Assembly (NCBI GenBank): GCA_014376815.1
Contig: JACMQV010000095.1
Span: 1-32,237, forward strand
Length of the DNA: 32,237 nt
From: Cryobacterium sp.
Lineage (GTDB): Bacteria > Actinomycetota > Actinomycetes > Actinomycetales > Microbacteriaceae
Direction of reading: 5' to 3'
The translations under genes were made by a program, and so were the position numbers. How positions within the stretch are numbered: the first letter of the stretch is position 1; the number at the start of each line of letters is the position of its first letter. Positions 1 to 19,962 of the stretch are shown here, piece after piece. Under the pieces are notes generated by a model, which saw nothing but the letters and a program-made list of their open reading frames with translations, was not told the DNA's origin and ran no database searches.

Positions 1-292
1 AGCGGTCTACCCGGAAACTCGGCGAGCCGCCTTAACGTTTCCTGTCTGACCTTGCTCCGGACGAGGTTTACCAAGCCGACCAGGTCACCCTGGCCTCTGG
101 TGGTCTCTTACACCACCGTTTCACCCTTACCTCCGGCCGAAGCCGAGGGCGGTCTACTTTCTGTGGCACTGTCTCGCGGGTTACCCCGGGTGGGTGTTAC
201 CCACCATCCTGCTCTGTGGAGCCCGGACGTTCCTCGGCATCCGCCACCCCGAAGGGAAGCGGATGACGCGACCGTCTTGCCGACCCATTCCA
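1..292 (-). ncRNA. rnpB: RNase P RNA (rnpB), class A, 3' end cut by window edge
   Basis: Catalytic RNA of ribonuclease P, which matures tRNA 5' ends. Read on the minus strand, the sequence holds the conserved P4/J3-4 region (GAGGAACGTCCGGGCTCCAC) followed by ACAGAGCAGGATGGTGGGTAAC and ACCCGCGAGACAGTGCCACAG, then GTAAACC and AGGTCAGACAGGAAACG, which are hallmarks of bacterial class A RNase P RNA. The 3' part, including the conserved ACAGAACCCGGCTTA segment, is not in the window, so the gene is truncated at position 1. The 5' end is estimated from a TATTCT -10 box at 299-304 and could be off by several bases. It lies downstream of the zinc-ribbon gene, a placement common in actinobacteria. ORFs called across this region are artefacts. 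Confidence 0.93.
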
Positions 293-11373: not shown

Positions 11374-11446
11374 TGGGCCCTACCGGGCTCGAACCGATGA
11401 CATCCACGGTGTAAACGTGGCGCTCTACCAACTGAGCTAAAGGCCC
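11374..11446 (-). tRNA. tRNA-Val (anticodon UAC)
   Basis: A 73-nt cloverleaf on the minus strand: acceptor GGGCCTT/AGGGCCC, D arm GCTC-AGTTGGTA-GAGC, anticodon stem CCACG/CGTGG with loop TTTACAC (anticodon TAC), variable ATGTC, T arm ATCGG-TTCGAGC-CCGGT, and discriminator A. CCA is not encoded. It lies between the GAF-ANTAR gene and the peroxiredoxin gene, all on the minus strand. Confidence 0.97.
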
Positions 11447-14976: not shown

Positions 14977-16182
14977 GTGGCAGCGACGCCGAAGACGAAA
15001 GAACAAACGCTCACCTGGCTCCGCACGATCTCGGGCGAGCTGTCTACAGCGACGCTCAAACGTCTCGAGGACACGCTGCCCTGGTACGGCGATATGCCGC
15101 CAGGGCGGCGGTCCGCGGTTGGCCTGGTCGCCCAGGCCGGGATCACCTCGTTCATCTCGTGGTTCGACGATCCGCGGTCCACCCCCTGGATTGCCGCGGA
15201 CGTCTTCGGCGCGGCCCCACGCGAACTCCTGCGGTCCATCAGCCTCCAGCAGACGCTGCAACTCATCCGGGTCACCGTCGAGGTGGTCGAGGAACGGGTC
15301 AAGGACGGCGGCGAGATCCTGCGGGAGGCAATCCTCCTGTACTCGCGGGAGATCGCCTTCGGAGCGGCCGATGTCTACGCCAGGGCCGCGGAGGCGCGCG
15401 GGCTCTGGGATGTGCGCCTGGAAGCTCTCGTCGTCGACTCGATCCTGAGCGGCGAATACGACGACGAACTGCCCAGCCGGATCGCCGCTCTGGGCTGGCA
15501 CGGGCACGGTGAGGTCTGCGTCCTCGTCGGCACGACCCCCAAGATGCTCGACGTCGACCAGCTGCGCCGGTCGGCCCGGCACATGGCCGCGGACGTCCTG
15601 ATCGGCGTGCAGGGCAATCGCCTCGTCCTGGTCATCGGTCGCGCCCACCCCACTCGCACGGATGCGGAGGAGTCCATCGGAACGGCCTCCGCGCTCAGTT
15701 TCATGGAGATCGCGGTACAGCTGGAACCGAGCTTCGGAGCCGGCCACCTGGTGCTCGGCCACGAAGTGCCGAACCTGGTCGACGCCTCCAAGAGCGCCAA
15801 GGCCGCCCTCGCCGGATTCGCCGTGGCCCGCTCCTGGCGCAATGCACCCCGCCCCGTGCAGGCGGACGACCTGCTCCCGGAGCGTGCCCTCGCCGGCGAC
15901 CCGCTCGCCCGGGCCACCCTGATCCACCGCATCTACCGCCCTCTGCAGGCCCATTCGACCGAGCTGCTCACCACTCTCTGGTGCTACCTGGACAACGGCC
16001 GGTCCCTCGAGGCGACGGCGCGGGAACTCTTCGTACACCCGAACACGGTTCGGTACCGCCTGAAACGGGTCTCCGAGGTCATCGGCTACGACGCGACGGG
16101 GGCCAGGGAGGCCCTCATCCTGCAGGCCGCGCTCATCATCGGTTCGATCAGCGATCATGATGGTTCCACTCGACGGCGGTGA
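14977..16182 (+). CDS. fasR: FasR-type (Rv2242-like) PucR/CdaR-family transcriptional regulator
   Basis: 401 residues. The C-terminal 60 residues form a PucR-type helix-turn-helix (LWCYLDNGRSLEATARELFVHPNTVRYRLKRVSEVIGYD), and the middle has a GGDEF-like degenerate fold typical of CdaR regulators. Genes at this exact position, between aceE and fabD, include Streptomyces FasR and mycobacterial Rv2242, which activate fatty acid synthesis genes. GTG start 7 nt after the aceE stop, so co-transcription with aceE is likely. It presumably acts on the promoter region between itself and fabD; I could not identify its operator with confidence. Confidence 0.92.
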   Translation: MAATPKTKEQTLTWLRTISGELSTATLKRLEDTLPWYGDMPPGRRSAVGLVAQAGITSFISWFDDPRSTPWIAADVFGAAPRELLRSISLQQTLQLIRVTVEVVEERVKDGGEILREAILLYSREIAFGAADVYARAAEARGLWDVRLEALVVDSILSGEYDDELPSRIAALGWHGHGEVCVLVGTTPKMLDVDQLRRSARHMAADVLIGVQGNRLVLVIGRAHPTRTDAEESIGTASALSFMEIAVQLEPSFGAGHLVLGHEVPNLVDASKSAKAALAGFAVARSWRNAPRPVQADDLLPERALAGDPLARATLIHRIYRPLQAHSTELLTTLWCYLDNGRSLEATARELFVHPNTVRYRLKRVSEVIGYDATGAREALILQAALIIGSISDHDGSTRRR

Positions 16183-16291: not shown

Positions 16292-17218
16292 ATGATTGTT
16301 GTCGTCTGCCCGGGTCAGGGCTCGCAAACCCCTGGTTTCCTCGAACCCTGGCTGGCGGACCCCGCTTTTGCCGCGGGCCTGGCCGAGATCTCAGACGGCT
16401 GCGAGATGGACCTCGTGCTCCACGGCACGGTCAGCGACGCCGACACGATCCGGGACACCCGGATCGCCCAGCCTCTGATCGTGGCCGCCGGCCTTCTCAC
16501 CCTGGATGCACTCCTGGTCGATGGTCGCCGGGATCGGATCAGCGGGATCGCCGGGCATTCAGTGGGCGAGATCACGGCCGCGGCCGGTGCGGGCATCCTC
16601 AGCGCGGCGGACGCCGTGCGGTTCGTGCGTGAGCGAGGGAACGCCATGGCCGAGGCCGCCGCGTTGGAACCGTCGGGCATGAGTGCGGTCATCGGAGCGG
16701 ATGAGACCGAACTACTCACCCGTCTCGACGAGCTCGGACTCTCCCCGGCCAACTTCAACGGCGGCGGCCAAATCGTCGTGGCCGGGTCCCTCGCGGCGCT
16801 CGCGGCCCTCGGCCAGAACCCGCCGACCCGCGCCCGCGTCATTCCCCTGCAGGTGGCCGGCGCATTCCACACCCGGTATATGCAGCCTGCCGTGGAGCAT
16901 CTCACCCGGGTGGCGGCGGCGCTTCCCCGGGCTGACCCGACCCTCCCGATCTGGACCAACCAGGACGGAACGTCGGTCTCCAGCGGGGCTCGTTTCGTCG
17001 ACCTGCTCGTTCACCAGGTCTCCTCGCCGGTACGGTGGGACCTGTGCATGAACTCGTTCGCGGCTGCCGGGGTCACCGGAGTCATCGAGCTCGCGCCGGC
17101 CGGCGCCCTCGTCGGTCTCGCGAAACGTGCACTCAAGGGCGTGCCCAGCGTCGCCATCAAGACGCCGGACGACCTCCCCGCTGCGTTCGACCTGATCGAC
17201 CAGCAGAACCAAGCCTGA
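16292..17218 (+). CDS. fabD: malonyl-CoA:ACP malonyltransferase
   Basis: 308 residues. It transfers malonyl from CoA to ACP for type II fatty acid synthesis. The nucleophile Ser90 is in GHSVGE, the N-terminal oxyanion-hole motif is CPGQGSQ, the substrate Arg is in RERGNAMAEA, and the catalytic His is in AGAFHTRYM. The ATG at 16292 (MIVVVCPGQGSQ) is used, as in the family; the longer track start at 16241 reads through non-conserved sequence. The ribosome site is weak (GCGAG), so efficiency may depend on the leader. A 109-nt gap after fasR probably contains the fab promoter. fabH follows after 12 nt. Confidence 0.97.
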   Translation: MIVVVCPGQGSQTPGFLEPWLADPAFAAGLAEISDGCEMDLVLHGTVSDADTIRDTRIAQPLIVAAGLLTLDALLVDGRRDRISGIAGHSVGEITAAAGAGILSAADAVRFVRERGNAMAEAAALEPSGMSAVIGADETELLTRLDELGLSPANFNGGGQIVVAGSLAALAALGQNPPTRARVIPLQVAGAFHTRYMQPAVEHLTRVAAALPRADPTLPIWTNQDGTSVSSGARFVDLLVHQVSSPVRWDLCMNSFAAAGVTGVIELAPAGALVGLAKRALKGVPSVAIKTPDDLPAAFDLIDQQNQA

Positions 17219-17230
17219 CCGAAAGGGACT

Positions 17231-18235
17231 ATGTCCAAGCCAACACTCCAGCAGTCGCACGGACCCCAGTTCACCCGCATCCTCTCCGTCGGCGCCGCCC
17301 GCGGGGATCTCATCGTTCCTAACGACGCCCTGGTCGGGCCGATCGACTCCTCCGACGAGTGGATCCAGCAGCGAACGGGCATTATCACCCGCACCCGGGC
17401 CAGCCAGTCCGTCGAGGCGGTCGACCTGGCCACGGACGCCGCCCGCGAGGCCATCGAGAAATCCGGCATCGCACCGGAGCTGATCGACGCCGTGATCGTG
17501 GCCACCATCAGCAACGGCCGTCAGACGCCCTCCATCGCCGCCGTCGTGGCCGACCGTGTCGGCGCCAACCCCGCCGCGGCCTACGACATCAACGCGGCCT
17601 GCGCAGGGTATGCCTACGCCGTCGCGCAGGCCGACGCCCTGATCCGCACCGGGGCAGCCCACTTCGCCCTGGTCATCGGCGCCGAGAAGCTGTCCGACCT
17701 GGTCGATCCCACGGATCGAAGCATTTCCTTCCTGCTCGGCGACGGCGCCGGCGCCGTGGTCATCGGCCCCAGCGAGTTCCCCGGTATCGCCCCCACCGTG
17801 TGGGGATCCGACGGGTCCAAGGCCGACGCGATCACCATGAACGCGACCCTGCAGGAATATCGCCGCGGCGAGGCCGACTGGCCCACCCTGCGCCAGGAGG
17901 GCCAGACCGTCTTCCGCTGGGCCGTCTGGGACATGGCGAAGGTCGCGAAGAAGGCCCTCGAGGTTGCCGGAATCGAGAGCAGCCAGCTCGACGCGTTCAT
18001 TCCGCACCAGGCGAATATGCGCATCATCGACGAATTCGCCAAGCAGCTCAAGCTGCCGGAATCGGTCGTCATCGCCCGTGACGTCGCGACCACCGGGAAC
18101 ACGTCCTCGGCGTCGATCCCGCTGGCCACCCACCGTCTGCTCGCCGAGCACCCGGAGCTCAGCGGAGGCCTCGCCCTCCAGATCGGCTTCGGAGCCGGTC
18201 TGGTCTTCGGCGCGCAGGTCATCGTGCTTCCCTGA
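17231..18235 (+). CDS. fabH: 3-oxoacyl-ACP synthase III
   Basis: 334 residues. It condenses an acyl-CoA primer with malonyl-ACP to start chain synthesis; in this group branched primers are usual. The catalytic triad is visible: Cys124 in NAACAG, His259 in PHQANMRI and Asn290 in TTGNTSSAS. The N terminus SSDEWIQQRTGI is standard. ATG start with GAAAGGG upstream, 12 nt after fabD. Downstream, 62 nt separate it from acpP; TAAACT at 18253-18258 in that gap could be an internal -10 for acpP. Confidence 0.97.
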   Translation: MSKPTLQQSHGPQFTRILSVGAARGDLIVPNDALVGPIDSSDEWIQQRTGIITRTRASQSVEAVDLATDAAREAIEKSGIAPELIDAVIVATISNGRQTPSIAAVVADRVGANPAAAYDINAACAGYAYAVAQADALIRTGAAHFALVIGAEKLSDLVDPTDRSISFLLGDGAGAVVIGPSEFPGIAPTVWGSDGSKADAITMNATLQEYRRGEADWPTLRQEGQTVFRWAVWDMAKVAKKALEVAGIESSQLDAFIPHQANMRIIDEFAKQLKLPESVVIARDVATTGNTSSASIPLATHRLLAEHPELSGGLALQIGFGAGLVFGAQVIVLP

Positions 18236-18297: not shown

Positions 18298-18546
18298 ATG
18301 GCATTGTCCACTGAAGAAGTTCTTGCCGGCCTGGCCGAGCTCATTAACGACGAGACGGGCATCGCGACCGACACGGTCGAGCTGGGGAAGTCGTTCACCG
18401 ACGACCTGGACATCGATTCCATCTCGATGATGACCATCGTCGTCAACGCAGAAGAGAAGTTCGACGTCAAGATCCCCGACGAAGAGGTCAAGAACCTCAA
18501 GACCGTCGGCAACGCCGTCGATTTCATAGTCAAGGCGCAGGTCTAG
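18298..18546 (+). CDS. acpP: acyl carrier protein
   Basis: 82 residues, acidic four-helix carrier protein. Ser41 in DDLDIDSISMM is the phosphopantetheine attachment site; the usual DSL is DSI here, a conservative change. It has a very strong ribosome site (AAGGAG, 6 A residues, ATG), as expected for an abundant protein. It is followed by a 47-nt hairpin before fabF, which could let ACP be made in excess over FabF. Confidence 0.97.
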   Translation: MALSTEEVLAGLAELINDETGIATDTVELGKSFTDDLDIDSISMMTIVVNAEEKFDVKIPDEEVKNLKTVGNAVDFIVKAQV

Positions 18547-18563
18547 CCCTCACCGAACAGGGC

Positions 18564-18610
18564 CACACGGGTCAGGCCGGCCGGCATCGCCGACCGGCCT
18601 GACCCGTGTG
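18564..18610 (+). terminator. long hairpin between acpP and fabF (attenuator or partial terminator)
   Basis: Perfect 17-bp arms CACACGGGTCAGGCCGG / CCGGCCTGACCCGTGTG surround an inner 4-bp stem after one mismatch, with a 3-nt loop. A run of six T lies 11 nt after the stem (18622-18627), so it is not a textbook intrinsic terminator but could stall RNA polymerase or protect acpP mRNA from 3' decay. Position inside the operon favours a role in setting the ACP:FabF ratio. Confidence 0.75.
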
Positions 18611-18649
18611 ACCTGTCCACGTTTTTTCGTCTCACGGAGAGTTAACGTT

Positions 18650-19885
18650 ATGACCAAGAAGATCGTTATCACCGGCATCGGTGCGACCTCCCCCCTCGGC
18701 GGCACGGCCGCCGACAGCTGGGCTGCCCTGCTCGCCGGCGAATCGGGAACGAGCACGCTGGACCACGAATGGGTGGCCCGCACCCAGCTCCCGGTGACCT
18801 TCGCCGCCCAGGCCCGGGTACCCGCCAACGAGGTGCTCGCCCGGCACGAATCGAAGCGTCTCGACCCCTCCAGCCAGTTCGCACTGATCGCCGGCCGTGA
18901 GGCCTGGGCGGATGCGGGCTCTCCCGAGGCCGACCCCGAGCGGCTGGCGGTCGACTGGGCGACCGGCATCGGCGGAGTATGGACGCTCCTCGACGCCTGG
19001 GACACCCTCCGTGAACGCGGCCCCCGCCGAGTACTGCCGATGACCGTGCCGATGCTCATGCCCAATGGGCCCGGAGCGGCCATCGGGATGGATCTGCATG
19101 CGCGGGCCGGCATCACGACCGTCGTCTCGGCGTGCGCCTCGAGCACCGAGTCCCTCGTGAACGCCTACAACCGCCTTCAGGCCGGCCTCGCCGACATCGT
19201 GATCGCCGGTGGCTCCGAAGCCGCCATCCACCCATTGCCCATCGCATCCTTCGCGGCCATGCAGGCCCTCTCCAAGCGCAACGACGACCCGGCAACGGCG
19301 TCCCGCCCCTATGACGTCAGCCGCGACGGGTTCGTGCTGGGCGAAGGGGCCGCGGCACTCGTCGTCGAAACGGAAGAGCACGCGAAAGCTCGCGGCGCCC
19401 ACATCTACGCCGAGCTCCTCGGCGGCGCCGTGGCGAGCGACGCGTACCACATCACCGCGCCGGACCCCGAGGGAACGGCTGCTGCCCGTGCGATGATCAC
19501 GGCGATCCAGAACGCCGGGGCGAGTCTCTCCGACGTGGCCCACATCAACGCCCACGCGACCAGCACCCCGGTCGGCGACATCGCGGAGTTCAACGCGCTC
19601 CGCCGCGTCTTCGGCGACCTGCTTGAGGGCATCCCGGTGTCAGCGACGAAGGCCTCCACCGGTCACCTTCTGGGAGGCGCCGGAGCGATCGAGGCCCTGT
19701 TCACGGTGCTGGCCCTGTCCGAGCGCACCATGCCGCCGACAATCAACCTGCAGCACCAGGATCCGAACATCCCGCTCGACGTCGTGACGAGTCCGCGTGC
19801 GCTGCCGAAGGGCGACCTTCTCGCCATCAGCAACTCCTTCGGGTTCGGCGGCCACAACGCCGTCGTCGCCTTCCGCTCGGCGTAA
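18650..19885 (+). CDS. fabF: 3-oxoacyl-ACP synthase II
   Basis: 411 residues. It elongates acyl-ACP chains by decarboxylative condensation with malonyl-ACP. The catalytic residues are visible: Cys162 in VSACASSTE, His302 in NAHATSTPVGD and His339 in TGHLLGGAGA. The C terminus NSFGFGGHNA is standard. ATG 18650 was chosen, with GGAGA upstream, over the track start at 18608, which begins inside the hairpin region. Last gene of the fab cluster; a long hairpin follows before the convergent DUF3145 gene. Confidence 0.97.
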   Translation: MTKKIVITGIGATSPLGGTAADSWAALLAGESGTSTLDHEWVARTQLPVTFAAQARVPANEVLARHESKRLDPSSQFALIAGREAWADAGSPEADPERLAVDWATGIGGVWTLLDAWDTLRERGPRRVLPMTVPMLMPNGPGAAIGMDLHARAGITTVVSACASSTESLVNAYNRLQAGLADIVIAGGSEAAIHPLPIASFAAMQALSKRNDDPATASRPYDVSRDGFVLGEGAAALVVETEEHAKARGAHIYAELLGGAVASDAYHITAPDPEGTAAARAMITAIQNAGASLSDVAHINAHATSTPVGDIAEFNALRRVFGDLLEGIPVSATKASTGHLLGGAGAIEALFTVLALSERTMPPTINLQHQDPNIPLDVVTSPRALPKGDLLAISNSFGFGGHNAVVAFRSA

Positions 19886-19911: not shown

Positions 19912-19962
19912 ACCAACGGGAACGACTCCGACCGGTATCCGGCCGGAGTCGTTCCGGTTGGT
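19912..19962. terminator. bidirectional terminator-like hairpin after fabF
   Basis: ACCAAC / GTTGGT outer stem, then GGAACGACTCCG / CGGAGTCGTTCC (12 bp), then CCGG / CCGG with a TAT loop, separated by single mismatches. It lies between the convergent ends of fabF and the DUF3145 gene, and its right end touches the latter's stop codon. There is no T-tract. Confidence 0.7.

Follow-up and report, generated by a model that had tools for sequence, protein, structure and literature searches.

A structure-conserved hairpin between acpP and fabF in the fatty acid synthesis operon of Cryobacterium and its relatives

Cells require acyl carrier protein (ACP) in larger amounts than the condensing enzymes, although the genes for both lie in one operon. 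How might such an imbalance be set within one transcript? The question is raised by a locus of Cryobacterium sp. (Microbacteriaceae), whose genome is available as a 3.1-Mb draft (301 contigs, 87.5% complete) and in which a strong hairpin separates acpP from fabF. The window, i.e. the whole stretch of 32,237 nucleotides that was analysed, carries on its plus strand aceE, a regulator gene, fabD, fabH, acpP and fabF. The features needed for the argument are given below.

16292..17218, plus strand: fabD, malonyl-CoA:ACP transacylase (TIGR00128, 174.6 bits, below the equivalog cut-off); first fab gene of the operon, adjacent to fabH, with its start codon set by eye
17231..18235, plus strand: fabH, beta-ketoacyl-ACP synthase III (NCBIfam NF006829/TIGR00747, above cut-off)
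18298..18546, plus strand: acpP, acyl carrier protein of 82 aa (NCBIfam NF002147, 127 bits, cut-off 84); the stop codon TAG is at 18544-18546
18557..18616, plus strand: intercistronic acpP/fabF hairpin, 26 pairs in total (sequence, inverted-repeat search and RNAfold)
18622..18627, plus strand: run of six T (T6) between the hairpin and the fabF ribosome-binding site
18637..18640, plus strand: fabF ribosome-binding site GGAG (sequence), 3' of the hairpin and not inside it
18650..19885, plus strand: fabF, beta-ketoacyl-ACP synthase II (NCBIfam NF005589, 467.7 bits, cut-off 387), starting with ATG at 18650

The regulator gene lies directly upstream of fabD (14977-16182) and gave a weak match to a CdaR/PucR-type helix-turn-helix; we assume that it may be a FasR-like regulator of the fab operon. 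Two ordinary RNA genes were also seen on the minus strand of the window, an RNase P RNA truncated at the edge of the window (1-287) and a tRNA (11374-11446).

The gap between acpP and fabF measures 103 nt, in agreement with an earlier note on this DNA that put it at roughly 100 nt and described a perfect 17-bp stem with an inner extension. This stem was recovered without mismatch (18564-18580 with 18594-18610). Inside it, a C-A mismatch (18581/18593) is followed by a 4-bp helix (18582-18585/18589-18592) and a loop of three bases, ATC (18586-18588). All the pairs listed in the earlier note are real, but the helix is somewhat longer than described there, as an outer helix of 5 bp (ACAGG/CCTGT, 18557-18561/18612-18616), separated from the 17-bp stem by a 2x1 internal loop, had been omitted. 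The arms span 25 nt and are 92% complementary. Beyond the hairpin, the motif GGAGAGT is retained in most Cryobacterium acpP-fabF gaps.

The RNAfold energy of the gap was -61.2 kcal/mol, compared with -33.9 +/- 3.2 kcal/mol in dinucleotide shuffles (z -8.5, 0/200). The hairpin was the top inverted repeat among the intergenic gaps of the window, and when 296 tandem gaps of 50-150 nt were checked in the complete genome of a relative, fewer than 2% held one as strong. Its energy lies below the limit of about -23 kcal/mol for an I-shaped, U-poor structured 3' end, and the stable GC-rich hairpin expected of a canonical (L-shaped) intrinsic terminator is likewise present. No Rfam family scored above its gathering threshold at the hairpin, and relaxed thresholds returned for the most part generic models of microRNA precursors, none of which came near its gathering score.

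A strong fold could still be functionless, for GC-rich intergenic DNA folds readily: high GC lowers folding energy everywhere, and the random intergenic background of S. clavuligerus is -15 kcal/mol (PMC8269248). Relatives of the locus make this explanation scarcely credible. Sampling of 60 related genomes, 80 named contigs and, more widely, the class yielded 183 distinct acpP-fabF gaps, and a stem-loop below -20 kcal/mol was present in 104/106 of the distinct gaps at family level. Controls from the same loci seldom reached this value: stretches ahead of acpP did so in 18% of cases, stretches within acpP in 7% and stretches within fabF in 27%. The hairpin finder is single-branch and misses branched stems (e.g. 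L087, L128 and L150), so the count of 104/106 is conservative. Over the 106 gaps, the family hairpins have a median of 16 bp and -32.6 kcal/mol, start at a median of 9 nt past the acpP stop and end at a median of 44 nt before fabF. As the family gaps are rich in GC, the single best hairpin in each gave only a modest z (median -2.4). Judged by this comparison, the hairpin is not a chance palindrome.

At the order level, a hairpin was found in at least 15 of the 18 sampled families; among the remaining ones, one showed a branched structure, and two, whose gaps are short (5 and 38 nt), lacked a hairpin. Other orders gave a mixed picture. In many of their families acpP and fabF lie 0-5 nt apart with no hairpin, while some families retain a gap with a stem. 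The function is therefore dispensable, or otherwise met, in those actinobacterial families where the two genes nearly touch. As a separate observation, most acpP-fabF gaps of L161-L170, from large class-level genomes of family f35, contain a shorter hairpin of the conserved sequence GCCACCCGGCGGTGGC. The stems in the window's order vary freely in sequence, in contrast to this one, which may be another, sequence-specific kind of element.

Covariation was examined in 35 Cryobacterium gaps, for which alignment is safe. Over the inner 12 pairs, 94.7% of cells were paired, and both-side changes were found in 25 cells versus 8.1 +/- 2.0 in shuffles (0/500 as high), while every slid register paired less than half of the cells. 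A 19-pair version of the stem left the covariation result unchanged. G-U pairs occur as intermediates, and one stem position shows A-U in 22 gaps, G-U in 6 and G-C in 7. Compared with the window, the otherwise nearly identical stem of the nearest relative carries a compensatory change from G-C to A-T plus a change from G-C to G-T, and the helix is kept. The covariation in relatives that the earlier note had proposed to look for is thus present, and it also speaks against a functionless fold. The element is real and structure-conserved.

The same data bear on another explanation, in which the palindrome acts as DNA, either as the site of a dimeric regulator or as a mobile (REP-like) repeat, and not as an RNA structure. 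Arms of this length and complementarity would permit a cruciform or the binding of a dimer. Moreover, the minus strand of 18557-18616, where no gene is evident, folds better than the sense strand (-69.4 kcal/mol), because the C-A mismatches turn into G-U pairs. However, stem sequences vary widely from genus to genus with the pairing retained. Among mispairs, G-T outnumbered A-C by 53 to 33 when counting did not favour wobble (p about 0.04, ignoring relatedness), which leans toward selection on the plus-strand RNA. Apart from the locus and its own reverse complement, no further copies were found in the assembly, whereas a REP element would be expected in multiple copies. A role as DNA therefore seems rather improbable to us.

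The earlier note had placed the T6 run 11 nt past the stem, and it is indeed found there (18622-18627); from the end of the outer helix the distance is 5 nt. A partial U-tailed intrinsic terminator, in which hairpin and T6 release some polymerases before fabF, was hinted at in that note. It could draw on the strong GC stem with T6 nearby and on the 3 T in the 8 nt past the outer helix, which are barely enough for the U-rich class of S. clavuligerus (PMC8269248). Counted from the 17-bp stem, the figure is 2/8; a U-poor end of that scheme has fewer than 3 U in these 8 nt. Against it, T6 is displaced from both helices and no U tract lies directly 3' of the stem, as a canonical L-shaped terminator would have it. 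A consensus promoter/terminator scan of the 15-24 kb part of the window reported no terminator site. A run of at least four T no more than 12 nt from the stem occurred in 1/102 family acpP-fabF gaps, which leaves the hint unsupported, and five or more T anywhere in the gap were seen in four family genomes only (that of the window, its nearest relative and two other members), while nearly all have the stem. Across the sequences compared, the T6 run is outside the conserved element and is not itself conserved. T6 is probably not a functional terminator tail, and we consider the U-tailed terminator an unlikely explanation. In short, the likeness to a canonical intrinsic terminator extends to the GC-rich stem-loop and, in the window genome, a nearby T run; the difference is that the run is displaced and not conserved and that fabF needs transcription through the hairpin.

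Hairpins of the same U-less kind were surveyed in the complete genome of a Cryobacterium congener, over 2.0 Mb and with home-made, rough gene calls. An inverted-repeat score of at least 12 was reached in 42-50% of the gaps between convergent genes, in 8-22% of those between tandem genes and in 0-7% of those between divergent genes. In divergent gaps of 50-150 nt the share was 0%, which again argues against a functionless fold. None of the 57 convergent-gap hairpins was followed by four or more T. Given this order of convergent over tandem over divergent gaps and the missing T tails, U-less hairpins are a usual mark of gene 3' ends there. The window itself provides a second example.

19913..19961, plus strand: second strong U-less hairpin (RNAfold -39.9 kcal/mol, z -5.4), at the end of the fab operon between fabF and a convergent minus-strand gene ending at 19962

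The boundary between binding-protein and permease genes is a classical site where the upstream product is required in excess. In the congener, U-less hairpins seem to be over-represented where a putative solute-binding-protein gene precedes a permease gene: a score of at least 10 was found in 4/6 gaps of this kind compared with 101/464 other tandem gaps (p 0.024), a result that comprises six gaps only and depends on the rough gene caller. Strong hairpins between such putative genes were observed at about 4511-4600 of L214 and at G031:C1:1139545-1141961, placed as in malE-malF. The intergenic gaps of L201-L220 also contain a REP-like palindrome family that recurs between genes of the congener G031, CCGCGAAC(C/T)GTGAG...CTCACAGTTCGCGG.

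The position of the hairpin also bears on the possibility that it is a 5'-end element of fabF, which would protect the fabF message after upstream cleavage or insulate its ribosome-binding site from acpP structure. The hairpin does precede fabF without burying its GGAG, and 5' hairpins of the papBA type are known (PMC5927463). Nevertheless, the stem is nearer to the acpP stop than to the fabF start by the family medians given above (9 against 44 nt), and the strong hairpins of the genus track gene 3' ends and are nearly missing from divergent 5'-5' gaps. We thus regard a 5' role as doubtful.

What remains is to ask which known devices resemble a U-less hairpin behind an abundant gene. Among 34 E. 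coli operon gene pairs in which the upstream gene is stabilised, the 3' end lies at a stable hairpin free of a U tract in 26, and such hairpins were interpreted as barriers to 3'-5' exonucleases; in ABC transport operons, the binding-protein genes are the stabilised ones (PMC5927463). The malE-malF intercistronic hairpin is a case of differential operon decay (PMC5927463, citing Newbury et al. 1987). The acpP-fabF hairpin resembles it in being a stable hairpin right 3' of a gene required in excess, with the downstream gene transcribed through it, and its relatives have no U tract. The malE-malF element is a REP sequence, whereas the acpP-fabF hairpin exists in single copy, and the likeness is drawn from sequence and position.

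Two further systems are comparable. Among the structured transcript 3' ends of S. clavuligerus, those poor in U are more numerous than those rich in U and show more read-through when internal (PMC8269248). These HS-U-lack TEPs (I-shaped) share with our element a long GC stem near -32 kcal/mol and no conserved U tract, though in the window 3 of the 8 nt past the outer helix are T. Selective RNA processing and stabilisation at intergenic stem-loops sets the subunit ratios of the Clostridium cellulolyticum cip-cel operon (PMC4423207); these stem-loops, too, stand at the 3' end of an abundant gene, in an unrelated operon and phylum. The 3' ends of the Streptomyces transcripts and the processing sites of cip-cel were mapped, while the operon-internal acpP-fabF hairpin is known from its sequence. 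The element is probably functional and of a known kind.

We therefore favour, as reasonably likely, a reading in which the hairpin is an intercistronic 3'-end element of the acpP message, of the malE-malF type, leaving more acpP than fabF mRNA. RNA polymerase would transcribe fabD-fabH-acpP, and the hairpin would fold right behind the acpP stop, so that the upstream transcript would end at, or be trimmed to, the base of the stem. This could happen by cleavage in the fabF part followed by 3'-5' exonuclease trimming to the stem as in malE-malF, and/or by inefficient U-less (I-shaped) termination at the stem. Other transcripts would continue into fabF by read-through. The outcome would be more acpP mRNA than fabF mRNA, in line with the demand for carrier protein in excess. 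Which of these mechanisms acts, which way and how far the mRNA ratio shifts, and the tie to ACP demand are inferred. The roles named in the earlier note, partial termination or mRNA-end protection, give the best fit to the 3'-end position, the covariation and the likeness to the 3'-end hairpins of the genus.

Read-through is also the simplest way to reach fabF, because a promoter-like motif is absent in 95 of 102 family gaps: a TANNNT -10-like motif was found in the stretch from the hairpin to fabF in 7/102 only. In the window, the 33 nt from the hairpin to the fabF start contain no recognisable fabF promoter, and promoters inside acpP are conceivable. It is conceivable, and in our view very unlikely, that the hairpin is a regulated control point of fatty acid synthesis throughout the order, where a protein, an RNase or a small RNA modulates read-through or decay such that ACP:FabF follows lipid demand or temperature. 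In S. coelicolor microarrays, acpP as well as fabF was over-represented when compared with the operon's first gene (PMC1779546); therefore, a strong drop at fabF is no general feature of actinobacteria.

Devices of this kind are known, but no account of the acpP-fabF hairpin or of its retention in the FAS II operon across the order was found in the accessible, incomplete literature. A structure-conserved hairpin exactly at the acpP-fabF boundary is a concrete point where actinobacteria could set the ACP:FabF ratio. As a rule for reading such genomes, strong U-less hairpins inside operons may mark gene-dosage steps.
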